Position numbers and translations under genes: made by a program
The notes under the pieces: generated by a model
The model's input: the letters and a program-made list of their open reading frames with translations, nothing else
The model's database searches: none
What the model was told of the DNA's origin: nothing
In this document: piece after piece, positions 40,501 to 63,948 of the stretch
How positions within the stretch are numbered: the stretch's first letter is position 1
Layout: each line of letters opens with the position of its first letter
Assembly (NCBI RefSeq): GCF_900105865.1
Contig: NZ_LT629804.1
Location: 992,001 to 1,056,000 of the forward strand
Direction: 5' to 3'
Length of the DNA stretch: 64,000 bases
From: Arcanobacterium phocae
GTDB lineage: Bacteria > Actinomycetota > Actinomycetes > Actinomycetales > Actinomycetaceae

Positions 40501-40679
40501 GGTTCCTCCCTTTTCTTATATCTTAATCATGTTTGACGGGGGGCAAGCAGTTTATCCCAACGTTCGACCAACACCGCTCCGCCGCTGATCTATGGCTGCC
40601 AACCGCCAGCCGTATCACCAAGAGAGATATCACAGGCTCGATATGTGGGAGAACATAGCGTGGGTGGGTGCTCATTCGC

Positions 40680-40685
40680 TAGTCT
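40680..40685 (+). promoter_or_regulatory. -10 box of guaA, leaderless
   Basis: TAGTCT ends 7 bases before the guaA ATG at 40693, identical in sequence and spacing to the guaB3 case. Confidence 0.55.
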
Positions 40686-40692
40686 AGAGGGT

Positions 40693-42258
40693 ATGAATAC
40701 AACTGATCTTCGCCCAGTGATCGTCGTTGATAACGGCGCCCAATACGCTCAACTTATCGCTCGCCGTGTGCGCGAAGCCGGATACTTCTCCCAGCTCGTC
40801 CCACACTCCATGTCTACCGCCGACCTGCTAGCTAAGCAGCCTACAGCTATCGTGCTTTCTGGTGGACCATCGAGCGTCTACGAGCCAGGCTCGCCAAACC
40901 TCGATCCAGCAATCTTGGAAGCTGGCGTACCAGTGTTCGGTATCTGCTACGGCTTCCAGCAGATGGCTCAAGCATTGGGCGGAAAAGTTGATAAAACTGG
41001 CTTGCGTGAATACGGCGCAACGCAGGCGACCGTCGTCGATAGTGGCGTTATTCTTGGCGAAAACGCAACCGAAAACGTGTGGATGAGCCACGGGGATGCA
41101 GTTACGCAAGCCCCGGCAGGTTTCGTTGTGACCGCGACGACGCCGGGTGCACCAGTTGCCGCGTTTGAAAACCCCGAGGCGAAGATGTTCGGCGTGCAGT
41201 GGCATCCAGAAGTCAAGCATTCTGAGCACGGCCAAGACATGCTCGTGCGCTTCTTGCGTGACGGCGCTGGTCTCGAGCCAAACTGGGATTCGGGATCGAT
41301 TATTGAAGATCAGATCGAGAAGATTCGTGCCCAGGTTGGCGATAAGCATGCGATTTGTGCGCTCTCTGGCGGCGTGGATTCTTCGGTTGCGGCAGCTCTC
41401 GTGCACCGCGCAATCGGCGACCAGCTCACCTGCGTGTTCGTCGATCACGGTTTGCTACGTAAGGGCGAAGCCGAGCAGGTTATTGAAGATTACGCTGAAG
41501 CTCGCGGTATGAAGATCGTGGCTGTGGATGAATCTGAGCGATTCTTGAACGCGCTCGCGGGTGTGCGCGATCCAGAAGAAAAGCGCAAGATTATTGGCCG
41601 GGAGTTTATTCGGTCTTTTGAGGCTGCGCAGCAGAAGCTGTTAGCTGAGGCGCCTGAAGGCGTGGAGTTCGCGTTCTTAGTTCAGGGAACCTTGTATCCA
41701 GACGTTGTTGAGTCTGGTGGGGGAGACGGTACTGCGAATATTAAGTCCCACCACAATGTCGGCGGTCTGCCAGAAGACATCGAGTTCGAGCTGATTGAGC
41801 CGTTGCGTGACTTGTTTAAGGACGAGGTGCGCGCGATTGGTTTGGAGCTGGGCTTGTCTGAGAAGCTGGTGTGGCGTCAGCCGTTCCCAGGGCCAGGCCT
41901 TGGTATCCGTATCGTTGGCGATGTGACTTTCGAGCGTTTAGAGACCTTGCGTGCAGCGGATGCGATTGTGCGTGAAGAGCTCAGCGCGGCCGGTATGGAT
42001 CGTGAGATCTGGCAGTGCCCAGTGGTATTGCTAGCTGACGTTCGTTCCGTTGGTGTGCAGGGCGACGGCCGTACCTACGGTCACCCGATCGTGCTGCGCC
42101 CAGTTTCGTCTGAAGATGCGATGACGGCGGACTGGACCCGCGTGCCATACGACGTGCTGGCTAAGATCTCCAACCGCATCACCAACGAGGTTGCTGATGT
42201 TAACCGCGTGATGCTCGACTGCACCTCGAAGCCGCCGGCCACGATTGAGTGGGAGTAG
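40693..42258 (+). CDS. guaA: GMP synthase (glutamine-hydrolysing)
   Basis: Aminates XMP to GMP, following GuaB. The 521-residue protein has a class I glutamine amidotransferase domain (GICYGFQQM with the catalytic Cys at about residue 82; WHPEVKHSE), an ATP pyrophosphatase domain ([15 protein letters not shown], about 223-237), and a C-terminal dimerisation domain ending [11 protein letters not shown]. The start [21 protein letters not shown] at 40693 agrees with the family and the -10 spacing. A further in-frame ATG 16 codons upstream is not supported. Confidence 0.97.
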
Positions 42259-42277
42259 GCAACTTCTAGTTTTAGCA

Positions 42278-42306
42278 AGGCCCCGCAGAATTTTTCTGCG
42301 GGGCCT
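42278..42306 (+). terminator. Terminator of guaA
   Basis: A 13-bp GC-rich stem (arms 42278-42290 and 42294-42306) with a TTT loop, 19 bases after the stop. Confidence 0.85.
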
Positions 42307-42399
42307 CACTAATTCATGGGTTAAAGGCTAAAAGGATGAAATAAAGTTTGGTCAGCTCCAAAGGTAGCTGGACCTAAATTCTCAGTATCTCGGACAGAA

Positions 42400-43926
42400 C
42401 TAATTAGTTTTAAATTTAAAACCGATCTGTTCGCCTTTAACTTTGAGATTCGCTATTATCACCTGTTCAATTAGTTGAGGGTTAAAACCGTCAAAATGCC
42501 CACTTCCAGTGATGGATACCCCAAATAGCTCAAAACGGCGGAAATGCGGATTTTTTTCATCTATACCTGCAATATATCTAATGTAAAAGTGGCTTTTAAA
42601 ATCACAGTGATTAATTTTCAAGCTATCACCGATCTGAAGCGAATCAAGGTGAGCTTCTTTCTTGTCTAACACTGTGCACTTATGGAGTTCAAGGGCTCTC
42701 CCATACGATGAGGCATTAAATGAGATATCGCCATGGAAGTTGCAACCACTAAAGATCGCACTATCGCAAAAAGTAGCATTATCAAACAACACTTTCCCAC
42801 TAAACTCCGTTTCATTAAACAGTGGAGTCCAAAACCACTTACTGCGTCGAAAATCTACTGAACCTTTGAAACGTGTTGTCCCCGGATAGTTATCCACTTC
42901 GTCGCTTGCAACGAACCCCCAATTTATCGATTTAGAGGTACTTTCCCCGACCTCGTTCCCAAAGTGCGCACCTCTGAAGTTAGCTTTTTTGGCAAAATTA
43001 ACGTTGCCTTCAAAACTAGGATTACTGAAATGAGCATGCTCAAAAATTGCTCGATCTTCAAAGCTGGCGCCGTTAAGGTTAATGATATTAAACTGCGCAT
43101 GACTTGCGTATACTGAATGACGAAATTTAGCTCGAAACAATGTAAGTTCATTTTTAAATTCACATTTTTCTATATTGACGCTGCAATGAAAGATAGTGTC
43201 TTGCATCGAGAATCGGAGGTTTCTCCAATCAGCCAGTTTTTCATTTCCTTGAGTTCGTTCCGCAATCAGTGTGATGACGCGTTCCTGAGCGATACCAAGA
43301 GCTCTTTCTGGAAAATCAGTAGAATGTCCATCATTAATCCCGTCGTCAGAAGGGAGATGTAAGCCTGCTCCTAGCAGTCCTGCTAGTCTTAGGAAGGTCG
43401 TTAACATGTCGACTATGCGCTGGTTTAATACCTCAACCTCACTCTCAGTCAAGGTTCCATTTTCCCTTTCTCGCTTAAATTCATCTACGAATTCATCAGA
43501 AAGTGCAGCGAGTGCATTTAATCCTGCAATTTTATGATCAATTGAATCCTCACCAAGTAAATCAAGACTTTTATTGATACGCTCTTCTCTGCGCCGTTGC
43601 CGCACGTAGCGATCCTGTTGCAAAGCGAGAATCTCTGATCGATTTTCTTCTCGGAGTTTTCTTTCCGTTTCTGCTTTATTAGTCACAATTCCGACAGTGG
43701 CAGATAGTATAGTTCCGACACCTAACGATAATACAACTCCGGAATTAAGGGACTCGGCTCCTTTTCGAATCTTCCAATCAAGCGGACTGGAAAAATCAAT
43801 ATAGTTAAAGAGCCAGCCAAGCAATAAGAAAGTGGCCATTATCATTATGGTGACAAATCCAAGCCATCTAAAAATTTTCGTTCCTATAGTCAGTTTATTC
43901 TTCCATTCCGTATTCACCTTACGCAC
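42400..43926 (-). CDS. Membrane-anchored pentapeptide-repeat protein
   Basis: About 508 residues from GTG 43926 (AGGA 5 bases upstream); a GTG at 43974 would add 16. Two hydrophobic helices occur near the N-terminus (FVTIMIMATFLLLGWLF and VVLSLGVGTILSATVGIV). A charged coiled-coil-like stretch and a helical domain containing SIDHKIAGLNALAALSDE follow. From about residue 260 there is a run of pentapeptide-like units with F/L at every fifth position (AQFNI, ASFED, AHFSN, ANFRG, AHFGN, ATFCD), predicting a right-handed quadrilateral helix on the cytoplasmic side. It is AT-richer than guaA and marks the left edge of the variable island. Related proteins occur sporadically; the function is unknown. 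Confidence 0.75.
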   Translation of the reverse strand: MRKVNTEWKNKLTIGTKIFRWLGFVTIMIMATFLLLGWLFNYIDFSSPLDWKIRKGAESLNSGVVLSLGVGTILSATVGIVTNKAETERKLREENRSEILALQQDRYVRQRRREERINKSLDLLGEDSIDHKIAGLNALAALSDEFVDEFKRERENGTLTESEVEVLNQRIVDMLTTFLRLAGLLGAGLHLPSDDGINDGHSTDFPERALGIAQERVITLIAERTQGNEKLADWRNLRFSMQDTIFHCSVNIEKCEFKNELTLFRAKFRHSVYASHAQFNIINLNGASFEDRAIFEHAHFSNPSFEGNVNFAKKANFRGAHFGNEVGESTSKSINWGFVASDEVDNYPGTTRFKGSVDFRRSKWFWTPLFNETEFSGKVLFDNATFCDSAIFSGCNFHGDISFNASSYGRALELHKCTVLDKKEAHLDSLQIGDSLKINHCDFKSHFYIRYIAGIDEKNPHFRRFELFGVSITGSGHFDGFNPQLIEQVIIANLKVKGEQIGFKFKTN

Positions 43927-44265
43927 CTGCTTCCTGTAGACGTGAATGCGCAAATATGCTGACCTAACTATCACATACCGCTAAAGTAGATATATTTTAA
44001 CATTACCGGAACTGTTGGCGAGTGGGGTAAAAGCTCAATAGCTCACTGCGTGTCAAAGCACGTCGGCGAGGCTAATGAAGAGTATTTTCCTGTTGATTGT
44101 TAGGTTTGGTATGTTAGAGTGACAACAGAAATTGTTGTGAATATGAGCTGATTTGGGTATACAGATCGTACGCGAATTAATATCTCAATTCGCTCTAAAT
44201 AAAGCATCCTGCATCTTGTTCCGATTCTCTATAGTAAAAGGGTAAGTTTATCTCTTTTGTCAAGC
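43927..44265. other. Intergenic stretch at island left side
   Basis: No gene recognised. It is AT-rich, with no inverted repeat strong enough to report. It separates the pentapeptide-repeat gene from the end of the decayed IS110-type transposase. Confidence 0.5.
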
Positions 44266-45491
44266 CTAGGTGGCTAGTTTGACGGGTCGGGTTTTGTGGA
44301 AAGTCTCGTCTCGGATCATGGTGAAGATGACTGCTATAGGTTTGTGTGCGAGTGCGATGATGGCTTGGTTGTGGCGTTGTCCAGCCAGGCATTTCTTGTC
44401 GTAGTAGCGTCGTGAGGTCGGATTTGATCGCAGGGAGGCAAAAGCGGAGAGGAACAGGGCTCGTTTGAGGCGTTTGTTGTCCGTGTGGGACATGGTTTCA
44501 GATTTCATTGATGTTCCTGATTGACGAGTTGCGGGTGTTAGTCATGGCATATGAGGCAAGGTGTGTGGCAGAAGCAAATTCTTTACCTGCTAGTTCGTCC
44601 GGTGATGACAGTACTGGTCCTGATCCCAACTCCTGGCATGGAGGTGAGGACCGAGTAAAGAGGGTGGTCACTCACCAGTGCCTCGATCTGGGTTTTTGAT
44701 GGTGGCTCGTTGGCGGTAGAGTTTATTGAGCGTTGTTGCAAGGTGTGGGATAACAATAGTGGTTGCGTTCGTACCGGTCACGGTCACTGTTTGTGTGGCT
44801 AGAGCGTCACGGGTTTCGTCTGCCCAAGCTTGCCGATACCGAGCTGGGTATTTCTTTAGTATTGCTACTAATACGAGCATGGCCAGCTTTCTTGAATTGG
44901 TCTGGCACTGGCCAGGTTTGTAGCATGGCTAGCAGTTGCTTGATGGTCTAGGCGTGGTCCGATTACGCGTTGCATACCGGGGGTGAATCTGAGTAAACAA
45001 GCCCCGGATACGGTTCCTGGTCTGGGGGATGTGTTGGGCGAGATCACCTTATCCGGTGAGCATCCCTAGCTCGGCTTCATCTTCATCAACCGTACGAAGA
45101 GCGCGCAGTGTGTGGGGCATCGCGTGAGTTGCTTGAGCGATGATGAACGCATCGCTCTGGTTGGTTTTAGCGTTTCCTGGGTATAGATCCGCGATCGGTC
45201 GCATCGTCAAACCAGGTAAGTACGCGACCTGTATCCCCAATTGCTTGGGCCACTGCCACAGCCAGCGCGCCGAATTGTTGCTGGCTGATCGACAACAATA
45301 AGTATTGGGCCAAAGCTGGCAAGCTCATCATAAATCTGTCGTAGTTATTTCTTCATCATTGGGGAAGCGAATGTGAATAGACCAGATTGCCACTGCCGTT
45401 AACGGCGGTTGTCCAGTGATCAGTCTTGCCCTGCGTCGATGCCAAGCCAGATATCGAAATTCTCCGGTGTCGCTGCCTGTCTGGCTTTCAA
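44266..45491 (-). pseudogene. Decayed IS110/IS1111-type transposase
   Basis: Pieces of one transposase lie in order on the minus strand but in different frames. The N-terminal DEDD part begins near 45491 (KARQAATPENFDIWLGIDAG), then breaks by a TGA and frame change before HWTTAVNGSGNLVY. Next comes GIQVAYLPGLTMRPIADLYPGNAKT (45049-45240), then ILKKYPARYRQAWAD (44668-44880). The helix-hairpin-helix LTSMPGVGIRT lies near 44640, and the C-terminal ETMSHTDNKRLKRALFLSAF is at 44266-44508. Several frameshifts and stops make it non-functional. The order and motifs match the IS110 family. The 45492-45736 stretch upstream shows no gene. Confidence 0.85.
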
Positions 45492-45736
45492 GAATAAAAC
45501 CAGTTAACTAGTTTTTAGCTTTCGCGGGTAAACACATCCGTCTTACACCCACGCCTGCGACAGGCATCATATTCCAGTGCCACGCCCCTGATGAGCAATC
45601 ACCAGTGCGTCTGTCCGATCCCGGTGACACCCTGGATCGTTGAAATTGACAGGGGCAGACAATCATGCTGGGATCGTCCAGCCAACAACCCCATCATCGC
45701 GCAACTGCCAGCTTCAGGGCTTATCAAAACAGTAAC

Positions 45737-46901
45737 GGGGAATGGGTCGATGGTGAAAAAGTTTAGTAGCCACACTCGAGAACGCATTGTTCGTAAGCTT
45801 GATAAGGCTTGAGAACTTAAAGAAGACGGGGCGAGTACGGCTCGGGTTCTGACCTTACTTGGAATTAGTGAAGGCTCACTACACTGGTGGTAAGCTACTT
45901 ACGGTTCGATGAGTAAGAGTGAGGCTAAAGAGTTAAAGTGTTTGAGTGAAGAGACCTCACGTTTCAAGTGTCTTTTAGGTCAGGCAGAGCTGGAAAAAGC
46001 GGCGGGGGAGGAATTGTCGTAAGGTAACTTTCCCCCAGCTCGCTACCCCGATGTGGTATGGTATCTGGTCGAGCTGGGCTAGTGCTAATGATTGGTTTGC
46101 CTGATTGTTGGGCTCTCACGCAGCGCTTACCAGCGTGCCAGAGCAGGTGATGACAAGCCTGATAGGTACGTGTTTTTTAGCGAGTGGATGTATGAGTTTG
46201 CTAAGGATCACCGCCGGTGGGGACATCGGCGCACTTGGGTTACAGCGCTAGCACAAGGGTATGGGGCGTGGCGGGAAACATTTCGTCGCTTATAGCGCGA
46301 GGAAGGCCTACGTGTGTTACCAAGGAAGAAACGTCAGAGTTTAACAGGTAAAGATCATCGCGAGGTGCTACCTGGTCAATACCCCAAAGCTGTGTGGGCT
46401 CTGGACTTCCAGTTCGATTCAGGCCCGGCATGGGAAGATGATCAAGATTTGCAACATCATCGATGAATATACCCGTGAACATGTTGCCTTTAGCGTCGAT
46501 CACAAGTTTGATACTGTCTCAGCTATTGAGCTACTTGGCCTAGCATCACTCGAACATGGTGGCAGACCTCGGGCGATCCTGATGGATAACGGACCTGAAT
46601 TCATCTCTCAAGCCTTACATGAATGGGCTGGTGAGGATGAAACGATTCAAGCGTTTATTCCAGCCGGTCAGCCTTGGCATAACGAGTTTGTTGAATCGTT
46701 TCATAACCGGATGCGAGATGAATTACTTGAAGGTAACAGCATCGAGAACCTAGAACACGCTCACACGTTGGTGGTTCACTGGTTACGACACCACAATAAC
46801 TTCTATCCACATTCCACGCTGGGCTACCTCAGCCCACGACAATACGCGGAACAATGGAAACAAGAAAACACGGTCAACACTTAAACCAACTGGACCAAAA
46901 A
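45737..46901 (+). mobile_element. Decayed IS3-family element, copy A (left, truncated)
   Basis: Shares 1165 bases with copy B (48317-49481) in inverted orientation; I found one base difference in the parts compared (Arg versus His codon near 46135). It lacks the outer end that copy B retains (49482-49533). The orfA region (from about 45751, MVKKFSSHTRERIVRKLDKA) is broken by TGA and TAA. orfB is split between frames. The inner end carries CTGGACCAAAAA, complementary to the other terminal repeat type TTTTTAGGTCCAG. Confidence 0.85.
46438..46884 (+). pseudogene. IS3-type transposase (orfB) C-terminal fragment, copy A
   Basis: A 148-codon open stretch with the integrase (rve) core: the second catalytic Asp in ILMDNGPEF and Glu in NEFVESFHNRMRDELL, ending YLSPRQYAEQWKQENTVNT. 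The first catalytic Asp lies just upstream in another frame (WALDFQFDS, about 46400), so a frameshift separates the triad and the enzyme is probably inactive. The same defect is present in copy B. Confidence 0.85.
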
Positions 46902-46932
46902 ACTAGGCCACGCCATTCTCCATAAATCTTTT

Positions 46933-48216
46933 CTAGTTTTCGAAGAGTTCTTTCCTGTCTTCAAATGGCATATCATTTAAATCTGGAACATTGGAGCCAA
47001 TAACTTTTATTGGTCCTGAGCTAGACATCACATATCCAGGATCTCCCTTTAACTCGATAAGTTTAAATTTACTCTCACAAGATTTACAATAGAGGTCAGA
47101 TAAATTATGTGGAGGATTCCAGTGATTAATTCTACCGCACATACAAGGTAATTCTATGGTTTGTTTAGATTTTATCAACCCTTCCTTTATGACGAAAGCG
47201 TACTTGTTATTTCTCGTCTTCACATGTTCAATAAGTTCTTTAACGTAGTTTTCTATTGTAGCAGTCATTCTTTTGCTACTCTTAACGCAGAAAATTTGTT
47301 CTAACATTTTTGAAATAGCACTCATATATATTTTGGCGAAAAATATTACCAGCGTTTCAATAATCTCATATTTCAACTCATTAAAATTTTCTGTGCTTAA
47401 TAAGTATGGCCCTAAAACACTTCCAAAAACGATGTCTAGTTGCTCTGAGCTTGAAAATAATGTTGAAATATAGCCAATATGTGTAAATTCTGAAGAAAAC
47501 TTAAATAAATTCTTCAAGTCTTTTATAAAATCTTGTTCTGATGATAATCCAAGTTCATCAAAGATAAAATCTAACTTTTGACCAAATGTATTTTTGGAGC
47601 ATTTTGTAATATCTGATTCATGTCCTTTCACTCTCTGCTTATAATTCAATTTATCAAATTCGGCTAAAGCTTGGGTAATTTCCTCATTAAATAGTGACTG
47701 GCGGATTGATTTAGTTGCGTACAATTCAAAACTTTTTAATGATGTTAACACATGGAAATTTAATTCTTTTACATCTAATAGGATCATTTGATAGGCATCA
47801 GATACCAAGCTATCAAGAGTTTGTCTGGTAACTGTAACTAATTCGTTGTAATCAATAAATTGTTTTTTCAACAAATGAACATTATTGTTTTCGATTTCAG
47901 CCATATCGTCAACTTTTGAAATTTCAGAGAATTTCTTTAATATCTCAATATCATTTAGCAAAATTCTGGGTATTATGTCTAGAAAATAAAATTTTGAATT
48001 GTGCTGGTTTTTAAATTCATCGCTTACATTATCCGCACTCTCTATCTCTTTTTCTATTTCTTTTTCCAAAATGACTATCTTATTTACAAAGATATCTAGA
48101 AGTTTGCTAACATATTTAATGTTATTGTATAATACCTCGTAATTATTTAAAGCAGCTGAATTTCTTTTTTCAGATAAATTAGTTGAAATACTCTTTATTA
48201 TATCTTTCTCGCTCAT
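46933..48216 (-). CDS. AT-rich gene of unknown function: helical protein with C-terminal zinc ribbon
   Basis: I do not recognise this 427-residue protein. Residues 1-330 are predicted mostly helical and charged, with a coiled-coil-like start (NKIVILEKEIEKEIESAD) and a helix pair around LFKFSSEFTHIGYISTL (about 240-256). The C-terminal ~75 residues form a zinc ribbon, CMCG and CKSC separated by about 18 residues, then a tail with GSNVPDLNDMP. Codon use and base composition are far more AT-rich than the rest of the window, indicating transfer from a low-GC donor. It is enclosed by inverted IS3 copies. AAAGGA lies 12 bases before the ATG. A similar ribbon-plus-tail module occurs at the N-terminus of the next island gene. 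Confidence 0.7.
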   Translation of the reverse strand: MSEKDIIKSISTNLSEKRNSAALNNYEVLYNNIKYVSKLLDIFVNKIVILEKEIEKEIESADNVSDEFKNQHNSKFYFLDIIPRILLNDIEILKKFSEISKVDDMAEIENNNVHLLKKQFIDYNELVTVTRQTLDSLVSDAYQMILLDVKELNFHVLTSLKSFELYATKSIRQSLFNEEITQALAEFDKLNYKQRVKGHESDITKCSKNTFGQKLDFIFDELGLSSEQDFIKDLKNLFKFSSEFTHIGYISTLFSSSEQLDIVFGSVLGPYLLSTENFNELKYEIIETLVIFFAKIYMSAISKMLEQIFCVKSSKRMTATIENYVKELIEHVKTRNNKYAFVIKEGLIKSKQTIELPCMCGRINHWNPPHNLSDLYCKSCESKFKLIELKGDPGYVMSSSGPIKVIGSNVPDLNDMPFEDRKELFEN

Positions 48217-48316
48217 GAAATTATTTTATCCTTTCCAAATAGACTATAATTTGATTATATTTTATAGTAATAAAATTTGAATTATAAGATTACAATCATT
48301 CGTTGCTAGGTGTTGC

Positions 48317-49533
48317 TTTTTGGTCCAGTTGGTTTAAGTGTTGACCGTGTTTTCTTGTTTCCATTGTTCCGCGTATTGTCGTGGGCTGAGGTAGCCCAGC
48401 GTGGAATGTGGATAGAAGTTATTGTGGTGTCGTAACCAGTGAACCACCAACGTGTGAGCGTGTTCTAGGTTCTCGATGCTGTTACCTTCAAGTAATTCAT
48501 CTCGCATCCGGTTATGAAACGATTCAACAAACTCGTTATGCCAAGGCTGACCGGCTGGAATAAACGCTTGAATCGTTTCATCCTCACCAGCCCATTCATG
48601 TAAGGCTTGAGAGATGAATTCAGGTCCGTTATCCATCAGGATCGCCCGAGGTCTGCCACCATGTTCGAGTGATGCTAGGCCAAGTAGCTCAATAGCTGAG
48701 ACAGTATCAAACTTGTGATCGACGCTAAAGGCAACATGTTCACGGGTATATTCATCGATGATGTTGCAAATCTTGATCATCTTCCCATGCCGGGCCTGAA
48801 TCGAACTGGAAGTCCAGAGCCCACACAGCTTTGGGGTATTGACCAGGTAGCACCTCGCGATGATCTTTACCTGTTAAACTCTGACGTTTCTTCCTTGGTA
48901 ACACACGTAGGCCTTCCTCGCGCTATAAGCGACGAAATGTTTCCCGCCACGCCCCATACCCTTGTGCTAGCGCTGTAACCCAAGTGCGCCGATGTCCCCA
49001 CCGGCGGTGATCCTTAGCAAACTCATACATCCACTCGCTAAAAAACACGTACCTATCAGGCTTGTCATCACCTGCTCTGGCATGCTGGTAAGCGCTGCGT
49101 GAGAGCCCAACAATCAGGCAAACCAATCATTAGCACTAGCCCAGCTCGACCAGATACCATACCACATCGGGGTAGCGAGCTGGGGGAAAGTTACCTTACG
49201 ACAATTCCTCCCCCGCCGCTTTTTCCAGCTCTGCCTGACCTAAAAGACACTTGAAACGTGAGGTCTCTTCACTCAAACACTTTAACTCTTTAGCCTCACT
49301 CTTACTCATCGAACCGTAAGTAGCTTACCACCAGTGTAGTGAGCCTTCACTAATTCCAAGTAAGGTCAGAACCCGAGCCGTACTCGCCCCGTCTTCTTTA
49401 AGTTCTCAAGCCTTATCAAGCTTACGAACAATGCGTTCTCGAGTGTGGCTACTAAACTTTTTCACCATCGACCCATTCCCCCTATCTACAGGAAAGGTAT
49501 CAACAAACAACACTCGAGTCATCTGGACCTAAA
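48317..49533 (-). mobile_element. Decayed IS3-family element, copy B (right, both ends present)
   Basis: Inverted near-identical copy of element A, carrying both ends: TTTTTGGTCCAG at 48317 and CTGGACCTAAAAA ending at 49533. Both orfA stop codons and the orfB frameshift are shared with copy A. The element therefore was already defective when duplicated, or was mobilised in trans. I could not define target-site duplications. Confidence 0.85.
48334..48780 (-). pseudogene. IS3-type transposase (orfB) C-terminal fragment, copy B
   Basis: Encodes the same 148 residues as the copy A fragment at 46438-46884, including MDNGPEF and NEFVESFHNRM. It is cut off from the first catalytic Asp by the same frameshift, so it is judged inactive. 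Confidence 0.85.
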
Positions 49534-49619
49534 AACTTAGGGCACTCCATGCTCAACTAAGCGTGTGTAAATCTCCCACTACAACATAAGCAGACCTTTT
49601 GCATACTATATAAAGCTGT

Positions 49620-49735
49620 TGGAAGTTTCCCGATGTGCCGTGCATCTCTCGCAGGGCTAGCTAAACTCCGTGACAATACGCGAAAAAATGAGAAGAGAAA
49701 ACGCGGTTAACACTTACGCAACGGGTTCAAAATCC
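49620..49735 (+). other. Remnant resembling the 3' end of an IS3 element
   Basis: About 49690-49725 resembles the orfB end of copies A and B with scattered changes (AGAAAACGCGGTTAACACTT against AGAAAACACGGTCAACACTT). It looks like a diverged third remnant just downstream of the 423-residue gene. The rest of 49534-49750 shows nothing. Confidence 0.45.
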
Positions 49736-49750
49736 TAAGCAACTCCAACA

Positions 49751-51022
49751 TTATACCGATGGTCTAAAGCCCTTAGCAAACACGAGCTCAACTTTTCGCA
49801 CATCATATATTAATTCCATAATATAAATAATCCAAGCGAAATTTTCTACACAGAGCTTCGCGAAATCCATCAGAGAAATCTTCTCCACACGCGTTTTACC
49901 TTTATGTTTATCATAAAAAGAAATTATTTGATCAACATAATCTATTTCATCACTACAATGCTGAATCGCATTCCTAACTCTATTATTTATATTATTTAAC
50001 GGTTTGCTAAAAGGTTCATCATCGGATATGAAAATATCTATCTTTCGATATTTACTATTAATCGTCTGTAAATCGCTATCGAAGTCTTTACTCTTTAAAC
50101 ATTTCGAGTAATCTTTTCTCTTAACAATATTATTTAGTGCAATAACCAGATCTAGAGCGTCTAATAACCACTCATAACTGCTAACGTACAGTTGTTTTAA
50201 ATCACGATAAAAGGCTGTAGATATGCCATATTTATCTTGATCTATCTCTCTATATTTATTAGTTTTCATTAATAGAACTACAGGGGATAGTTGAGAAAGA
50301 GCTTCAATGAAATCTCTTACTAGTGAATATGATCGATTTTCAAGTTCATTTAATGTTGATTCATATTTGGAATAATAGTTTAAAAGCTGTTTTTTATCCA
50401 AAGAACTATTGATTCTTTCAGATATCTTAATATATTCTCTTAAGGCGTTATTTTCTAGTAGAATCGTAATTCCTGAAGAAATAAAATTTTGATGAAGAAC
50501 CATAACTCCATCCAGTAAATTATCAACCTTTCGAATTGGAGTATAGTTTGAAATATTTTGAAGTAGTTTTTGAGTTTCGTTCAAGAAATACTTCTTATTG
50601 CCGTTTCGTAGAAGTTTATTAATCCGTATAAAATCGTCAAAAAGACCGTTTTGTGCACTCTCCTTTAATCTCGTAATCTGGTTGGATACGGTCAGAAATT
50701 CATCTTTCCCAAGTTTCATTACAGTGTTTATGAAGGGGTCAAATCCATGGGGAGGGATGATTGAATCTCTTAGGTACATTTTCCTGACAGGTAGGCCTGC
50801 TGATAACTCAACACACCACAAAGGGAGGTCTGGAGCATCTCCAAGATTTGAGGCGTTCTTCACTATAAGATCTTTATTTTTAGACGGATTGAATTCCAGA
50901 TATATTTCAGTTGAACACTCAGGACAGTTAACTATAAAAGAGATTGCATTTTCCTCTACTTGTATTCGTATATTTATTTTTTCATTACATGTTCGACAAC
51001 TGATATATGCATTATGGAGCAT
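49751..51022 (-). CDS. AT-rich gene of unknown function: N-terminal zinc ribbon and HEPN-like C-terminus
   Basis: Not recognised as a named family. The 423-residue protein begins with a zinc ribbon (CRTC at about 9-12; CPEC at about 34-37). A linker containing SNLGDAPDLPLW follows, then a long helical body. The C-terminal region has RVRNAIQHCSDEIDYVDQII (about 345-364). RNAIQH matches the R-x4-H motif of HEPN RNases, followed by a hydrophobic helix (FAWIIYIMELIYDVRKVEL). AGGGAGG precedes the ATG. It is AT-rich like the 46933-48216 gene and on the same strand; only IS copy B separates them. The two may once have been adjacent. An RNase toxin or defence role is a hypothesis. Confidence 0.7.
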   Translation of the reverse strand: MLHNAYISCRTCNEKINIRIQVEENAISFIVNCPECSTEIYLEFNPSKNKDLIVKNASNLGDAPDLPLWCVELSAGLPVRKMYLRDSIIPPHGFDPFINTVMKLGKDEFLTVSNQITRLKESAQNGLFDDFIRINKLLRNGNKKYFLNETQKLLQNISNYTPIRKVDNLLDGVMVLHQNFISSGITILLENNALREYIKISERINSSLDKKQLLNYYSKYESTLNELENRSYSLVRDFIEALSQLSPVVLLMKTNKYREIDQDKYGISTAFYRDLKQLYVSSYEWLLDALDLVIALNNIVKRKDYSKCLKSKDFDSDLQTINSKYRKIDIFISDDEPFSKPLNNINNRVRNAIQHCSDEIDYVDQIISFYDKHKGKTRVEKISLMDFAKLCVENFAWIIYIMELIYDVRKVELVFAKGFRPSV

Positions 51023-51139
51023 AAAACCCTCCCTAAAGTGAAATCTTTTATGTTATTGTATTTTATGTAGGTCGCTTATTGTAGCGGTCTGGGGTAAATA
51101 TGTAAGATGAAATGGTCTGGGGTTGCTTCCTAGGCGTTT

Positions 51140-51673
<534 letters not shown>

Positions 51674-51724
51674 TTAGCGGGGTGAAACGTTGTTACTCGG
51701 TGGGTTTACAGGCCTAGTATCAAG

Positions 51725-53010
51725 TGAAGTGTCCCGGGTTTTGTTCCTAGGCATGTGCCTTGATTTCTATTATTTCACGGTCCGTGTTGCCGGTCCAAAA
51801 TTCCTCCTCAGTCTCGACCGGCGTACGGTAGCTCAGGCTCTGGTCAAGCCGTGACTCGTTTGACCACGAGACCCATTCAAACGCCGTTATTTCAACACCC
51901 AGCCACGCTCCGCCCACGACCACCTATGAATCAGCTCATTCTCATAAGAACCGTTAACGTTCTCAGCCAAAGCATTGTCATAGGAATCGCCAACCGTCCC
52001 TGTAGACGCAGTAATTCCATGCTCAGCAAGACGCTCATTGTAAACAATGGCCACATCTTGTGAGCCATGGTCTGAATGATGAATCAGCCCCGTTGTTTTC
52101 TTCGCGCGTACAATCGCCTGATTGCGTGCCTGCAACGGTAACGCTTTACGTTCGCATCGAATCAGATAACGCCCATCCAACAATCCGTTGGGAGAACACA
52201 TCGGTCACAAAAGCGGTGTAGACAAACCCCTTACGAGTACGGACAAAGGTAATGTCACCCCACCCACAACCGATTCGGCCCTGGAGCTCGAAATTCACGT
52301 CGCACTAAGTCCAGGCGAGTATCTCACCCCTGAGACTTGCAAGTTGTCACAGGGGATCGCCCCTTACCTTTGCCACTGACTCCAGCAAGACGCATTAAAC
52401 GAGCGGTTTGCTCACGACCAATATCAATCCCCTCACGACGCAACGCATGCCACATCTTACGAATTCCGTAGACACTGTAGTTACCTTCATGAACCTCAAC
52501 GATGTGCTCTATCAAAGCAGCGTCGCGAAGGCTACGGACACTTATGCCACGGGATTGTGATTGACGGTATCCACGAGAAGTGATGAAACCACCAACACGG
52601 TCGGCGTTTAACGTCTTGCAAATGAAACACGACAGGCAAACGATTCCCATACCCATCAATGAACCGAATCAGTTCCGATGTTTCGGGTCGAGTTCTGCCG
52701 CGATAAAAAGACGACGCAGATTATCTGGACTCGTTAGTGTAGCGAAGCTCTAGGTTTTCATGGCGTAGCCGTGCATTTTCGACTTCCAAGTCTTCTGGCA
52801 TGCGTTCAAGAACGCACCCATTCACGGCGAGCTATCTGCGTCCATTGCCGAGCAGTGTGCCACGAAACACCTAGTTTCGGTGCCACAATCTTACATGCTT
52901 CTTGCATCGAAACATTCTCCGCCAAAATACGGTCTTTTACCAAGCAAACGACGCGATCCCTCGCATCCTGATCAAATTTCTTTGGTATAGTACAGACTAT
53001 GCCCATCTGC
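51725..53010 (-). mobile_element. Decayed IS3-family element with orfA and fragmented orfB
   Basis: On the minus strand, orfA (52806-53006) encodes a 66-residue helix-turn-helix protein (KFDQDARDRVVCLVKDRI) that runs out of frame. An orfB N-terminal piece at 52324-52659 has the HTH_21-type YSVYGIRKMWHALRREGI. A further piece at 51887-52201 has HHSDHGSQ and SYDNALAENVNGSYENELIH. The C-terminal end (SYRTPVETEEEFW) lies near 51800. Stops and frameshifts around 52200-52330 inactivate it. The outer end near 51725 contains GGGACACTTCACTTGATA, plausible as a terminal repeat. Confidence 0.8.
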
Positions 53011-53055
53011 TCAAACAGAACAAAACCCAGTATGCTTCAGTTATCGAATGTCTCG

Positions 53056-54276
53056 TTAGATATCTAAATACTTTGCCGGGTTATTTAAAAGGTCATGGAA
53101 AGCTAGGTAGGCTCCACCTGTGACAGCTGCTAGGCGTCCTTCTTTAGATTTTTCTATGACGGGTAATGACCAACGCGCTGAGAGTAATCGATTCTTGATC
53201 TCATCCAATGCGTAGTGCCGTAAATCATCGATTAACTCCGCCAGTGTTCCTCCCACGATGACGTGATCCACATCAGTGATGTTTATGATGGTTGTCAGGG
53301 CTTTGCCAAGGGCACGCCCGGCAGTTTCGATTGCGGCACGGGCTGTAGGATCAGTAGCACTAGCTTCACGTATAGTCTGCATCGTGACTGTTTGAGAAAA
53401 ACCTGCGAGTCGAGAAAGTGCACCCCGTCCTAAGTATTGTTCGAGGCATCCAGTTGATCCGCATGGGCATTTTGGCCCAGCGGGGTCCACACACACGTGA
53501 CCGAATTCTCCGGCCCAGCCATGTAATCCAGATATCTGCTTGTGGTCGAGCATTAAAGCGCCACCTACGCCAAATTCGCCGGAGATGTAGAGAAAGTTCT
53601 TGTTTTCAGAAGGTTTTCCAGGGCGAGAATAGGTACTGGCTACTGCGGCGGTGTTGGCTTCATTGAGTATCTGGAAATTATCCATTCCTTGGCAGAATTC
53701 CATCTGGTTACAAAGTGATATTTCCGCCCAATTAAGGTTAGGTGCGCGCAGAATCAGCTTACGGTTCGTATCGACCAAACCAGGAACTGCAATCGTGGCT
53801 CCTACCAGTTGAGTGTGTGCGTTGCAGTAGCTATCGGTAAGTTGAATAAGTCGCTGGTCTAGTTTCTTTAGAACCGTTTGCGGATCGATACCTGCTAGAT
53901 TCTTTTCTTCGATGATTTCCGTTAACGTTTCACCATTGAGATCTACCATGCGAATGGCTATGTACCTCACGTTGATTTCGATTCCGATCCCTACGAACCG
54001 GCGCGCTACCAAACGCAGTGGCACAGCAGGGCGACCTGGAGTTGAGGCTGTCGAGGCCGGCATTTCTTCGATAACACGGCCAGAAATTAATTGATCCACG
54101 AGTTTTGAGGCAGTCGAACGTGTACAGCCCACGGACGTGGCGACTTCAGCTCGGGATAGTGGCTTTGGAGATTGCAAAATAGCGAGTAATGCTGAGTGTA
54201 GATTGGATTCTCGAGCACTGCGGGGACCAGCTGCTAGCGGTGGCTGTGAAGAATTGATGTATGGGGACAACTCCAA
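53056..54276 (-). CDS. xylR: ROK-family repressor, XylR-like
   Basis: A 406-residue regulator divergent from xylB. The N-terminal winged helix-turn-helix (about 28-75: LSRAEVATSVGCTRSTASKLVDQLI) is followed by a ROK sugar-sensing domain with NEANTAAVAS, GEFGVGGALM and the zinc motif CPCGSTGCLEQ. AGGAGG lies 9 bases before the TTG start at 54276. Operators matching the XylR type occur at both xylB and xylA promoters, so repression relieved by xylose is the likely mode. It sits at the right border of the IS-rich island. Confidence 0.85.
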   Translation of the reverse strand: MELSPYINSSQPPLAAGPRSARESNLHSALLAILQSPKPLSRAEVATSVGCTRSTASKLVDQLISGRVIEEMPASTASTPGRPAVPLRLVARRFVGIGIEINVRYIAIRMVDLNGETLTEIIEEKNLAGIDPQTVLKKLDQRLIQLTDSYCNAHTQLVGATIAVPGLVDTNRKLILRAPNLNWAEISLCNQMEFCQGMDNFQILNEANTAAVASTYSRPGKPSENKNFLYISGEFGVGGALMLDHKQISGLHGWAGEFGHVCVDPAGPKCPCGSTGCLEQYLGRGALSRLAGFSQTVTMQTIREASATDPTARAAIETAGRALGKALTTIINITDVDHVIVGGTLAELIDDLRHYALDEIKNRLLSARWSLPVIEKSKEGRLAAVTGGAYLAFHDLLNNPAKYLDI

Positions 54277-54336
54277 TCTGGTGAACCTCCTGACTCAATT
54301 TTGCCATATTAAATGATTTACTATAGCAGACATTTG

Positions 54337-54371
54337 TTGACAACATAGCACATTAGTGGTTGACAACATAG
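54337..54371 (+). repeat. Direct repeat upstream of xylB
   Basis: TTGACAACATAG occurs at 54337-54348 and 54360-54371. The second copy supplies the xylB -35; the first could be a second -35 or an activator site. Confidence 0.6.
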
Positions 54372-54402
54372 TGTTGCTGATTTAGTTTATCTTCTAAACT
54401 AA
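54360..54402 (+). promoter_or_regulatory. xylB promoter with XylR operator
   Basis: TTGACA (54360-54365), 17 bases, TAGTTT (54383-54388). The perfect inverted repeat TTAGTTTA-N5-TAAACTAA (54382-54402) overlaps the -10, as expected for a repressor site. TTAGTTT/AAACTAA half-sites are those of Bacillus XylR operators. Confidence 0.8.
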
Positions 54403-54426
54403 CAGTTTATTAAGGAGTAAGTCGCC

Positions 54427-55749
54427 ATGAATTTTCCATATGTTGCTGGAGTTGATTCCTCCACGCAGTCGTGCAAGGTAATAGTGTGGGATCCACAAAC
54501 GCAATCCGTTATTCGGCAGGGTTCAGCGCCACATCCCCAAGGGACTGAAGTTGACCCGGAAGCCTGGTGGCAGGCGTTTTTGCAAGCGTCAAAAGAGGCC
54601 GGTGGCTTGTCAGATGTTGCCGCATTGTCAGTTGGTGCTCAGCAGCACGGTATGATCACTTTAGATGCTTCGGGTGGGGTAATTCGCCCTGCGTTGTTGT
54701 GGAACGATACTCGCAGTGCATCTGCAGCTAAACAGTTGATCGATGAGCTTGGCAAAAAGCGCTGGATCGAATCGACTGGGTCAATGCCGGTAGCGTCGTT
54801 AACTGTAACGAAATTGCGTTGGTTAGCTGATGAAGAGCCGGAAGCGGTGAAAAAACTGGCTGCAGTTTGCTTACCCCATGATTATCTGAGTTGGCGTATT
54901 ATGGGCAGTCGCGATATTGCAGATATTTATACAGACCGCTCAGATGCTTCGGGCACTGGATATTTCGATCTTCATGATGGCGGTTATTGCCGTGACCTGT
55001 TAGCTCACGCGCTTAGGGTAGAAAATGAGCGCGTGCAAGGCTTAGTTTTGCCCAAAGTGATTGCGCCGTTCGAAGCTGCTGCGACGGTAAAGCGAGATAT
55101 TCCTGAGATCGGTTTCCGCGCGGGGACTCTTCTTGGTCCAGGTTGTGGTGATAATGCTGGTGCAGCTTTAGGGATTGGTTTAGGGCCTCGAGAAGCAGCG
55201 TTGTCCATCGGGACTTCAGGAGTCGTTTCTGTCGTAAGTGATCATCCGGTAGTTGACCTGGAAGGTGGCGTAAACGGTTTTATGGATGCGAGTGGAAATT
55301 GGTTATCTCTTGTCTCTACATTAAATGGAGCTCGGATTTTATCATCAACTGCTGAACTACTGGGAGTAGATTTTGCTGATTTTGATGCACTCGCATTATC
55401 GGTGACTGATTCACTAGGGTTAGCAATGACTCCCTATTTTGAAGGCGAACGCACTCCAAATTTACCAGAGGCTAAAGCGTGTTTGACCTCCATGACTTTG
55501 GACAACTGGAAGCCGCAATACTTAGCTCGGGCGGCGGTTGAAAGTTTGTGCCTACTAATGGCTAACGCCTTAGCGACGATAACGCGTTGTGGGATCGGAG
55601 TTGACCGTATTTATCTCATCGGTGGCGGAGCTAAGTCGAAAGCGGTTCGAGAAATTATAGGCGAGTACATGGATGTGAAAGTGGCGGTTCCCAAGCCGGC
55701 TGAATACGTTGCCCTGGGTGCTGCGCGTCAAGCAAGTGCAATCTTGTAA
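54427..55749 (+). CDS. xylB: Xylulokinase
   Basis: Phosphorylates D-xylulose to xylulose-5-phosphate for the pentose phosphate pathway. The 440-residue FGGY kinase opens VAGVDSSTQSCKVIVWDPQTQ and has ALSVGAQQHGMITLD, DRSDASGTGYFD and LIGGGAKSKAVREIIG (second FGGY signature region). AAGGAG lies 8 bases before the ATG. It has its own promoter and operator and precedes xylA by 85 bases, which hold a second promoter of the same design. Confidence 0.93.
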   Translation: MNFPYVAGVDSSTQSCKVIVWDPQTQSVIRQGSAPHPQGTEVDPEAWWQAFLQASKEAGGLSDVAALSVGAQQHGMITLDASGGVIRPALLWNDTRSASAAKQLIDELGKKRWIESTGSMPVASLTVTKLRWLADEEPEAVKKLAAVCLPHDYLSWRIMGSRDIADIYTDRSDASGTGYFDLHDGGYCRDLLAHALRVENERVQGLVLPKVIAPFEAAATVKRDIPEIGFRAGTLLGPGCGDNAGAALGIGLGPREAALSIGTSGVVSVVSDHPVVDLEGGVNGFMDASGNWLSLVSTLNGARILSSTAELLGVDFADFDALALSVTDSLGLAMTPYFEGERTPNLPEAKACLTSMTLDNWKPQYLARAAVESLCLLMANALATITRCGIGVDRIYLIGGGAKSKAVREIIGEYMDVKVAVPKPAEYVALGAARQASAIL

Positions 55750-55763
55750 CTTTTAAAATTCGC

Positions 55764-55806
55764 TTGACAGAGATTTATAAACATATTAGTTTAGAGTCTA
55801 AACAAA
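55764..55806 (+). promoter_or_regulatory. xylA promoter with XylR operator
   Basis: TTGACA (55764-55769), 17 bases, TAGTTT (55787-55792), with TTAGTTTA-N5-TAAACAAA (55786-55806, one mismatch from perfect symmetry) over the -10. It is the same layout as at xylB and probably drives xylA through the permeases. Confidence 0.8.
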
Positions 55807-55834
55807 AGTTTCTCAAAGGGGAGGAATGATTTTT

Positions 55835-57001
55835 ATGCGACAGCCAACTAAAGAAGATAAGTTTTCATTTGGATTATGGACAGTGGGTTGGACAGCAGTC
55901 GATCCGTTTGGTTCAGCTACACGACCTGCCCTAGATCCTTGGGAGTATGCGAGTAAACTTGCTGAACTCGGGGCGTGGGGGATTACTTTCCATGACAACG
56001 ACGTATTTGACTTTGAAGCTAGCCAAGTAGAGCGTGCCAAACGAGTCCAAAATCTTAAAGCAGCCGCAGATGAGTCTGATCTGGTCATTGAAATGGTCAC
56101 CACGAACACTTTCACTCATCCCGTTTTTAAAGACGGGGCACTGACGAACAATGATCGTGATATTCGCCGGTTCGGACTGCGCAAGATCCTGCGCAACGTG
56201 GATTTAGCAGCTCAAATGGGTGCAAGTACTTTCGTTATGTGGGGAGGGCGTGAAGGCGCAGAATATGACTCATCTAAGGATTTATATTCAGCACTCGAAC
56301 GGTACAAAGAGGGTATAGACACTATTGCTGAATACATAAAGCAACAAGGATATGACCTGAAAATCGGTTTGGAACCGAAGCCAAATGAGCCGCGAGGCGA
56401 CATTTTCCTACCTACAATAGGTCACGCTTTAGCGCTGATTGCTCAGTTAGACAACGGCGAAATAGTGGGTCTGAACCCTGAAACCGGACATGAGCAGATG
56501 GCCAACCTGAATTACACGCATGGTTTAGCGCAAGCTTTACATGCCAACAAACTTTTCCATATTGACCTCAATGGGCAGTCGGGAATCAAATATGACCAAG
56601 ATAAAGCCTTTGGGCACGGAGATTTAGCTTCGGCATTCTTCACAGTAGACCTCCTGGTAAACGGTTTCCCCAATGGTGGTCCGCGTTATGAGGGTGCACG
56701 ACATTTCGATTATAAACCCTCGCGAACTGAAGGGATGGAAGGAGTATGGGAAAGCGCTCGTGCCAATATGGAAATGTTTTTGATGTTAGAAGAAAAAGCC
56801 AAAGCATTTCGTGCCGATCCTAAAGTTCAGGAATTACTCAAAGCTGCCTCGATCGACCAGCTTGGCGAGCCAACTAGAGCGCCAGGAGAGACCATAGCTG
56901 ATCTATTGGCGGAACCAGATCGGGATCTCAATGAACTAGCTGGCCGTGAATACCATTTTGTTGAACTATATCAGCAGGCTATGCGGCACTTAGTTGGATA
57001 A
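55835..57001 (+). CDS. xylA: Xylose isomerase
   Basis: Isomerises D-xylose to D-xylulose. The 388-residue size and sequence indicate the class I (actinobacterial) type: [24 protein letters not shown] with the catalytic His/Asp, the metal ligand Glu in [25 protein letters not shown] and [15 protein letters not shown]. The third-line ATG at 55835 lies 10 bases after GGGGAGG; an ATG nine bases earlier is too close to it. It is first gene of the operon with the alpha-xylosidase and ABC importer. Confidence 0.97.
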
Positions 57002-57024
57002 CCAGATTTGAGAGAAGGCAAGCC

Positions 57025-59376: not shown

Positions 59377-59410
59377 TAACAGAACTAACAACATCTTTAG
59401 GAGAAAAATT

Positions 59411-60661
59411 ATGAGAGCGAAAAAGTTTCTCAACAGAAGTATAGCTATTGCTACGCTGGGTGCATTACCACTACTAGGATTAAGCTCTTGCTCAGCTGAT
59501 ACCGCTAGCGAAAATAGCAGTGATACGGCAGGTGAGCAGACAATTTTACTGTGGGACTATCTAGGGCAAGATACTCCCAATGACGCTATGACGGCAGCTA
59601 TCGAAAAATTCGAACAAACTCATGCCGGGGTTAAAGTCGAACGTAAGTCTTTCGCCTATGGAGATCTGTCGAAGTCTATTGTGCAGGCTGGTATTAGTGG
59701 GGAAGTCCCTGATATTGCAATTTTTGACAATGTTGATACCCAAAACTTCGCGTCCTTAGGTTTGCTGGAAGATATTACTGAAGAAACAAAGGATATGAAA
59801 GCGGACTTTTTTGAAGGGCCGTGGTCTTCTGGGCAGCAAGAGGGAAAGACGTATTCCCTGCCACTGAACTCCAATAATCTAGCGCTCTTCTACAATAAAG
59901 ATCTGCTCGATAAAGCTGGAGTATCAGTTCCAACTACTTGGGAAGAACTCGCGGATAGTGCCCGCGCAACTGCAACCGATGGCAACTTCGGCCTCGCTAT
60001 TTCCGCAGTGAAAAATGAACAGGGCACATTCCAAGTCCTACCGTTTGTGTGGCAAACTGGCGGTGACTTGGATAATTATGCCCAATCTGGAGCCGAAGCG
60101 TTAGGCTATCTCGCTGATCTAATTGATACCGGGGCAATGTCAGCAGCAGTAGCTAATTACTCACAAGAAGATGCACGTACCCAGTTCATTACAGGCAAGA
60201 CTGCCATGATGTTTAACGGCCCGTGGGAGATTCCCAACGTGAGTAAAGATGCTGATTTTAACTGGGGAATCGCTCCACTACCGGCAGGAAAAGTTGCTGC
60301 TACTGGTTTAGGTGGCGAAAATATTGGTGTATTTGCAGGAGCTAAAAATAAGTCTGGCGCAACAGAACTATTGAAGTTCCTCTCCGGTTCGGAAGGCTCA
60401 AAGATATATTGCGATATATCCGGGCAGCTCTCTTCTCGGAAAGATTTGGCTGGCAAACTTCAATTGTCTTCTGATGAGAAAATGCAAGTGTTCGAAAAGC
60501 AATTAGAAGTGGCGAAAGCTCGAGCTTATGGCGGTAAATATAACGAAATTTCTACTGCTGTTCAGCTCTCTATTCAAGAAGCTCTCACAGGTGCTAAGAC
60601 ACCGGAACAAGCCGCTAAAACAGCTGCCGATACTCTAGCCCCACTCTTGCCAAAGAAGTGA
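59411..60661 (+). CDS. Sugar ABC transporter substrate-binding lipoprotein
   Basis: A 416-residue solute-binding protein of the carbohydrate (family 1) type. A lipoprotein signal ends LLGLSSC, with lipidated Cys at about residue 27. Typical core elements include ILLWDYLGQDTPNDAMTAAIEKFEQ, YSLPLNSNNLALFYNKDLLDKAG, FITGKTAMMFNGPWEIPN and a C-terminal SIQEALTG. AGGAG precedes the ATG at 59411; an in-frame ATG inside the xylosidase gene is rejected. Substrate is inferred from the operon: an alpha-xylosyl oligosaccharide or xylose. Confidence 0.92.
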   Translation: MRAKKFLNRSIAIATLGALPLLGLSSCSADTASENSSDTAGEQTILLWDYLGQDTPNDAMTAAIEKFEQTHAGVKVERKSFAYGDLSKSIVQAGISGEVPDIAIFDNVDTQNFASLGLLEDITEETKDMKADFFEGPWSSGQQEGKTYSLPLNSNNLALFYNKDLLDKAGVSVPTTWEELADSARATATDGNFGLAISAVKNEQGTFQVLPFVWQTGGDLDNYAQSGAEALGYLADLIDTGAMSAAVANYSQEDARTQFITGKTAMMFNGPWEIPNVSKDADFNWGIAPLPAGKVAATGLGGENIGVFAGAKNKSGATELLKFLSGSEGSKIYCDISGQLSSRKDLAGKLQLSSDEKMQVFEKQLEVAKARAYGGKYNEISTAVQLSIQEALTGAKTPEQAAKTAADTLAPLLPKK

Positions 60662-60667
60662 TAACCC

Positions 60668-61606: not shown

Positions 61607-61608
61607 AG

Positions 61609-62481: not shown

Positions 62482-62683
62482 GCGTTAAGAATTAATATCT
62501 GGCTGACTTCTGTTCTGTTTCTGGAGCTATTTGTTCGTAGCGTTTAGGGCCGGCTTGTCACGCTTTACTTCCCAACTGAGAGTAGCGACATCTACTGCGT
62601 GTTAATGGTTGTAGTTTTGCCTGGCAGTAAAGACGGCGGTTTCCATGAAATATTGGTGGAAAATGCTTATGTTGGTCAATTGT

Positions 62684-63745: not shown

Positions 63746-63831
63746 AGCTTTCTCCTTATTCACCTACGTTGTTGGAATCTGTGGAAATGATACCAACCAT
63801 ATTCTCTAGTGTGGGTTGTTGTTAGTGTTTC

Positions 63832-63859: not shown

Positions 63860-63948
63860 ACGGGCGGTAGTTGCGTGGGGTGGATAGTGCAGCTCTGATC
63901 GTGAGTTAAAAGCGAAGATTTAGCAGCGAGAGTGCGCAGGGATATTAT

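Follow-up and report, generated by a model that had tools for sequence, protein, structure and literature searches.

HEPN ribonucleases are recognised by a conserved R-x4-6-H pattern, a polar residue directly after the arginine and a conserved acidic residue upstream; the latter typically lies within E-x3-[KR], a form that is typical of many families and no requirement (PMC3710099). Here, we describe a putative member of this superfamily, gene B, and its neighbour, gene A, in a stretch of 64,000 nucleotides of the actinobacterium Arcanobacterium phocae (NZ_LT629804.1, positions 992,001-1,056,000). The whole stretch is called the window and coordinates are positions in it unless another locus is named. 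Both genes lie on the minus strand, gene A at 46933..48216 (427 aa) and gene B at 49751..51022 (423 aa), which reproduces exactly the open reading frames (ORFs) of a preliminary description of this DNA. With moderate confidence we suggest that B is a solitary HEPN-type abortive-infection ribonuclease, that A is a separate defence-island gene and that both were clipped by insertion sequences (ISs) after transfer.

Comparison with described systems

Two described HEPN proteins can be compared directly with B. Tha, a prophage defence protein of Staphylococcus aureus with 301 aa and the motif R265NSIMH270, is a solo HEPN ribonuclease woken by phage tail proteins (PMC11087260). Like B it stands alone and combines an uncharacterised N-terminal part with a C-terminal HEPN region that carries RN-x3-H. 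In contrast with B, the passages describing Tha mention neither a zinc ribbon nor a SEC-C motif, and no homology is detectable with its single sequence. Tha may serve as a working model for B and not as a demonstrated relative. The second is pEK499_p136 (PF18736; “pEK499_p136_Ecoli like (B)”), which has R-x4-H and the polar residue after the arginine in common with B; an I-x-F-x-D stretch following the motif also looks alike in both by eye (L029). According to a table in PMC3710099 some pEK499_p136-like members are found in operons with restriction–modification genes. However, B proteins are about 420-480 aa long, have an N-terminal zinc ribbon and often a SEC-C tail, and only 6 of 49 B relatives touch PF18736, all below its cut-off.

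Two further systems resemble the locus by position. AbiEi and AbiEii are found in the same guaA-pcrA island as A and B but are the two genes of another system, which has models of its own and is distinct from both. The 3' end of guaA is a known site of integrated elements, e.g. ATE-1 of Trueperella pyogenes, also an actinobacterium (PMC5704250, table); ATE-1 and other elements of this kind share the insertion site seen here, whereas by eye no integrase is identified next to either gene here.

Gene B as putative HEPN ribonuclease

The protein encoded by gene B shows a zinc ribbon at residues 9-36, a poorly conserved middle part (about 60-250) and a HEPN-like region that we estimate to span residues 255-412 approximately. 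On the minus strand the ribbon cysteines C9-xx-C12...C33-xx-C36 are encoded at 50915..50998, the candidate acidic residue E284 at 50171..50173 and the candidate active site RNAIQH (residues 350-355) at 49958..49975. A first search yielded 74 homologues and a second one, whose query was a 13-row alignment built from distant members, found 127, of which 120 were listed. In an alignment of 70 family members (A4), whose identity to the B protein of the window goes down to 15%, the residues C12, C33, C36, Y279, E284, N298, R350, N351, H355 and Q365 are invariant and C9 is kept in 69 rows. RN-x3-H is present in 118 of the 120 homologues fetched from both searches together; the two others are the short proteins P0002 (297 aa, a record of the window's gene B itself) and P0010 (307 aa).

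Taken alone the RNAIQH motif would prove little because R-x4-H is found in 22% of shuffled B sequences (RN-x3-H in 2.0%); it is the conservation of the motif that counts. The suggestion of the preliminary description that B carries a HEPN-type ribonuclease motif has held up well, with R-x4-H and its flanking residues unchanged in all 70 aligned rows. The features of HEPN members found in B are thus R350 and H355, the polar N351 and the upstream acidic E284. Moreover, PF18736 shows sub-threshold matches in the 6 relatives mentioned above (alignment A1; E up to 1, best 0.0014) and in 4 of the 70 members of A4 (E up to 0.1). In the two best-scoring relatives, P0070 and P0071, the match covers residues 348-388, i.e. 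it lies over the RN-x3-H motif. Because of the invariant residues and these matches of its relatives B is probably a HEPN ribonuclease, with predicted activity, and we consider its membership in the HEPN superfamily very likely. Its C-terminal region would then fold into a four-helix bundle, with the motif at the end of helix 3 and E284 in helix 2. Two relatives also graze the Cas13a model of PADLOC (E 0.02). Apart from the SEC-C tail no model of Pfam, NCBIfam or PADLOC 2.0 covers B, and no paper naming both SEC-C and HEPN was found in the literature searched.

The SEC-C tail is a variable part of this architecture. By pattern it is present in 46 of the 120 homologues, all of them within P0001-P0074 and none among the distant P0195-P0240, and was not found in the remaining 74, some of which are fragments; among the A1 members it is matched in 29 of 49. 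PADLOC matches of B relatives to PDC-S12 and E2 occur in the same proportion (29 of 49) and were ascribed to this tail. The B protein of the window lacks the cysteine tail and ends with ...FRPSV, where P0003, P0005 and other near full-length relatives extend into SEC-C. Just past the 3' end of the gene the DNA shows 74% identity to one end of the IS next to it, which suggests that an IS caused the loss of the tail. Over 291 residues the record P0002 shows no difference from B; the residues that follow, up to its end at 297, differ and seem to be read in another frame.

Distribution and neighbours of gene B

The genome scan revealed 19 loci with B, 17 of them in records named as Bacillota and 2 in Pseudomonas. 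In addition B is found in 28 plasmid records (Enterococcus 26, Lactococcus 2). None was found in phages, and viral contigs hold no relative of the distant B branch (A5) or of L029. The chromosomal loci L009, L011, L012 and L018 represent one kind of element that by eye and by its shared genes resembles an integrative and conjugative element (ICE).

Neighbouring genes were scanned with PADLOC as a selection and had mostly been picked for their defence-like look, so that the strong matches at 7 of the 11 chromosomal loci with at least one scanned neighbour are not a rate; at L003, L004, L008, L011, L012, L013, L020 and L021 no neighbour was scanned. In L016 the ORF of Gabija GajA (1.4e-137), accompanied by GajB (8.7e-136), overlaps the B ORF by 20 bases. 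Shedu SduA (2.4e-164) is found in L015, a type IIG restriction–modification protein (4.6e-168) in L017, LmuB of the Lamassu type (2.8e-62) in L019 and a type II methyltransferase (MTase_II 3.9e-88) with its restriction endonuclease (REase_II 1e-15) in L005. The DUF262 protein Orf5 (Orf5/HEC-06) is matched in L014 (1.5e-175) and L010 (5.9e-26), where a second scanned neighbour has no match. L009 gives only a weak match (DrmC 4.4e-8), and the scanned neighbours in L006, L007 and L018 give none. Among the plasmids, L068 carries AbiGi (7.9e-92) and AbiGii (3.4e-90), the nearer one about 1.6 kb from B, and L024 a ThiF protein (E1-E2 7.1e-21) at about 1.4 kb, with no match for the gene beyond it. 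The ICE-like cargo slot of L018 has a 399-aa protein after B (L018:11386-12582; no PADLOC match), where L009 and L012 carry another gene.

These PADLOC-matched neighbours, together with those of A described below, agree with the defence context that had been proposed for both genes. Judged by the company kept, a defence role is likely, for B more than for A.

A partner of B was searched for among ORFs of at least 35 aa within 2.5 kb of the gene at 26 loci (25 and the window). No ORF family occurs in more than 6 of them, so that no recurring antitoxin family was found as it would be expected for a toxin–antitoxin pair. Two families reach 6 loci: one is recombinase-like by eye and the other is a small ORF discussed below. 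In L003 and L008 (Streptococcus) the surroundings of B are purine genes, with purK directly before it. The order in L008 is purK - B - purB (names by eye) and B needs no adjacent partner there since the gaps comprise only 15 and 90 bases. The simplest reading would be that B is a solo gene whose product is self-silenced until triggered.

Gene A and its family

Gene A belongs to a family that is unrelated to B and without earlier description, and it would represent a separate defence-island gene. A relationship with B was considered and rejected, the profile comparison giving a probability of 6%. Of 7995 candidates scored, 296 A-family proteins pass E 0.001, and 120 were listed, the window's own protein among them. 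Among the matches listed the relatives are 46-75% identical and originate from Clostridium, Campylobacter, Tenacibaculum, Erwinia, Vreelandella and a metagenome-assembled genome of Euryarchaeota.

Typical conserved regions, all encoded on the minus strand, are the zinc ribbon C358-x-C360...C377-xx-C380 (47077..47145; invariant in 42 rows and in 21 rows), the motif SSEFTHIGY at residues 241-249 that includes His246 (47470..47496) and R131-x3-D135 (RQTLD, 47812..47826). In the 21-row alignment A6, which contains one relative of only 23% identity, R131, D135, S242, H246, G248, Y249 and the four ribbon cysteines are invariant. CxC..CxxC is present in all 120 listed proteins and the exact form SSEFTHxGYxST in 109. 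The conserved motif likely has a catalytic or binding role. An R-x4-6-H pattern is not present in A, no curated model was found for it in Pfam, NCBIfam or PADLOC, and a sequence search revealed no relatives in PDB. The four-cysteine ribbons noted in the preliminary description are present in both proteins.

A is rare in the genomes searched. It occurs in 1 of 296 genomes of the host phylum and in 1 of 121 of the host family, in both cases the host itself, and in 1 of 398 genomes of the phylum of a Pseudomonas genome; 398 genomes of the phylum of a Streptococcus genome gave none in a search that contained no positive control. It was found neither in phages and plasmids (tblastn) nor in E. coli (blastn with the DNA of one relative).

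Two A loci outside the window could be read. In L026, a contig of a viral collection, an integrase (by eye) precedes A by 1.4 kb and a PtuB-like HNH gene (2.6e-26) adjoins it, and 6-9 kb beyond A follow the reverse transcriptase of a type I-A retron (RT_I-A 3.2e-131), PtuA (1.2e-184) and PtuB (3.5e-68). Between the A relative and the retron a 910-aa protein is encoded (L026:12088-14820) that by eye may be a nuclease-type defence gene and has no PADLOC match. In L096 a distant A of 564 aa has a SIR2 gene (4.2e-12) as its neighbour, and the patch that holds them has 54-61% G+C within surroundings of 67-72%; two further small genes of this patch have no PADLOC match.

Transfer and insertion sequences

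A and B are real, AT-rich genes. Their G+C content is 29.7% and 32.2%, respectively, versus 49.2% for the window, and when stretches of 1272 bases are sampled each 100 bases of the window the ten lowest in G+C all overlap A or B. Neither reaches a curated Pfam cut-off or has a match in PADLOC, and in NCBIfam B alone shows a match, which stays below threshold. Both look like recent arrivals because 120 other genomes of the host family, searched with each gene, contain no relative. The low G+C and common strand noted in the preliminary description are confirmed, and the horizontal transfer proposed there is supported.

The IS-rich setting proposed earlier is evident as well. IS copy A (45737..46901, plus strand; IS3-type by eye) and the inverted copy B (48317..49481, minus strand, revealed by repeat comparison) flank gene A, with copy B located between the two genes, and differ at 1 of 1165 bases. 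The end homology of copy A runs to about 46915-46920, less than 20 bases from the stop codon of gene A. Two end fragments of a related degenerate IS (49508-49554 and 49650-49747, i.e. 49508..49747 on the plus strand), 74-79% identical to the end of copy A, abut the 3' end of gene B. On the 5' side of B, the region 51290..52278 contains two degenerate stretches that resemble transposase genes (51290-51643 and 51925-52278); by eye they are IS3-like, and they are 68% alike. Thus, both genes end at IS ends. The seven closest relatives of the A protein (P0076-P0082) exceed the window's copy by 10-18 residues. Because gene A is bracketed by inverted, near-identical IS copies, its place beside B may stem from IS movement.

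The guaA-pcrA island

The host genome comprises 1,998,242 bases in one contig. The 3' end of guaA (GMP synthase; 40645..42258, plus strand), an ORF that is also present in 8 congeners, is the left border of a variable slot. The left part of this island spans 42259..64000, and pcrA lies beyond it at the window-equivalent position 75308 (C1:1067308; UvrD-like by eye), about 33 kb after guaA. A second copy of the guaA 3' end, the mark of an inserted element, was not found within the window. The first gene of the island (42400..43974, minus strand) encodes a pentapeptide-repeat protein of 524 aa (Pfam Pentapeptide_3 8.1e-14) with hydrophobic N-terminal segments by eye; it adjoins guaA, has 41% G+C and shows no known family besides the repeat. 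At 53056-64000 the slot contains, by eye, a ROK-type regulator, xylulokinase-like and xylose-isomerase-like genes and a sugar ABC transporter. The host AbiEi (2.2e-74) and AbiEii (4.2e-81; PADLOC) are located at the window-equivalent positions 63996-65862 and start five bases before the window end.

The stretch following guaA was read in 7 of the 8 guaA-bearing congeners. In five of them (L081, L085, L086, L087, L088) pcrA is found within 20 kb, at distances of 0.2-15 kb, and the about 0.2 kb in L088 represent an empty slot; pcrA was not reached in 20 kb of L082 or in 40 kb of L083 with L084. From these blocks ten proteins of L081, L082, L083 and L086, and none of L084, L085, L087 and L088, were scanned with PADLOC. 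L081 contains AbiEi (7.7e-74), AbiEii (3.1e-81) and a methyl-directed restriction endonuclease (3e-62), L082 a type I methyltransferase (4.4e-191) and restriction endonuclease (E 0), and L083 HmaA and HmaB (both E 0), HmaC (2.9e-268) and a Dsr1-like gene (3.4e-50); the single protein scanned from L086 has no match. The guaA-pcrA slot collects defence genes in this genus. In the congener genome of L083 and L084 (G338) a guaA 3' piece of 139 aa with 96% identity lies about 20 kb from guaA, and weaker guaA-like pieces are seen in G338 (L080) and G368, a pattern to be expected if elements had inserted repeatedly at the 3' end of guaA.

Proposed role and alternative explanations

If B is a solitary HEPN-type ribonuclease, its zinc ribbon and variable middle part would sense an infection cue or keep the enzyme inactive. 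Once triggered, the predicted C-terminal HEPN region (E284...R350-N351-x3-H355) would cut RNA as a dimer and thereby halt growth of the infected cell, in line with the putative role in phage defence. Both genes would have reached the actinobacterium from an AT-rich donor, which in the case of B was probably an element of the Bacillota type, and ISs would then have moved in and clipped them.

Several observations weigh against this explanation. No HEPN model of Pfam, NCBIfam or PADLOC matches the B protein of the window itself, and its E284 is followed by x3-D288 (by eye E-x3-D or E-x3-H in relatives) and not by the E-x3-[KR] form. Comparison of the B profile with single sequences of Tha (hhalign probability 0.2%) and pEK499_p136, a weak test, revealed nothing, and at E under 0.001 only SEC-C peptides are found as PDB relatives by sequence. 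The selection of scanned neighbours belongs here, as do neighbours that look ordinary by eye at L003 and L008 (purine genes), L004, L006 and L007. Being clipped, the copies of A and B in the window may be weakened or inactive. Finally, in L009 (9543-9890), L011, L012 and L018 the small ORF (109-143 aa as called) immediately precedes B, and a different ORF of 57 aa precedes B in four Enterococcus plasmids read. The former recurs in L005, where it is short and of weak similarity, and in L015, where it is located upstream of SduA and not of B; it is possibly either a B partner or a marker gene of the element. Thus, a local partner is possible in these subsets but a common one was not found, and antitoxins made of RNA or very divergent ones are conceivable too.

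The preliminary description had suggested that A and B may be one two-gene defence or conflict system split by an IS copy; such a system would combine a ribonuclease effector with a sensor or antitoxin. The common strand, similar base composition and a zinc ribbon in each protein speak for it. So do P0001 (B, 73%) and P0084 (A, 62%): the only record of either comes from a contig of 3929 bases, with an identical source for both, and they probably share this contig. However, P0001 breaks off within its SEC-C tail, as though the contig ended there; A would then lie 5' of B, opposite to the arrangement in the window. A is absent from all 19 B-bearing genomes, in an all-negative search without internal positive control whose query does find the host genome (the corresponding genome-wide search for B among A-bearing genomes comprised the host only), and it is found in no plasmids, in contrast with B in 28. 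None of the 27 B stretches that were fetched contains A, and B is likewise missing from L026 and L096, the two stretches fetched for A. The two-gene system has not stood up and we consider it improbable. A related and bolder proposal, that A founds a new defence class, thinly distributed among bacteria and archaea (about 50% identity), with R131, D135, H246 and the C-terminal zinc ribbon as an undescribed effector, which would have cooperated with the HEPN ribonuclease B in the donor, deserves little credence. It is doubtful, too, that A is a divergent protein of the DUF5677 type (R-x3-[DE] ... S-x3-H), which we take to be HEPN-like, and a ribonuclease-like effector. In its favour, R131-x3-D135 and S242-x3-H246 of A are unchanged in all 21 aligned rows, R69 and H136 are invariant and E73 is nearly invariant among ten DUF5677 proteins, and the best profile match (12 columns) falls on the His-motif region of A. 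Nevertheless, this match lacks significance (probability 0.3%, E 0.19, no shuffled controls), on which grounds A was rejected as a member, and Pfam matches DUF5677 neither to the A of the window nor among the 25 families listed for relatives.

A serious possibility, though short of probable, is that the window copies are decaying remnants among ISs and idle in the host, whatever their intact relatives do. Both 3' ends at IS ends, the missing SEC-C tail of B, the divergence of P0002 after 291 residues and the degenerate IS stretches on both sides of B agree with decay. On the other hand both frames are open and the invariant residues are kept, and many homologues, some being fragments, show no SEC-C by pattern either. 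That B is a metal-binding or secretion-linked protein and no ribonuclease we regard as very improbable: source annotations of relatives (SEC-C metal-binding, YecA family), the frequency of SEC-C in A1 and the matches to the C-terminal peptides of SecA and YchJ point in this direction, but SEC-C is a tail that the B of the window lacks and that was not found by pattern in the 46 distant homologues P0195-P0240, whereas the R-N-x3-H site is invariant.

Solitary HEPN-type ribonucleases of the B family would represent a new architecture within a known superfamily, and A a second family without curated model that is worth a structure. The guaA-pcrA slot is a place to seek further systems in this genus. 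B itself is a testable single-gene candidate for RNA-cutting immunity on enterococcal and lactococcal plasmids and on ICE-like elements of Clostridia.

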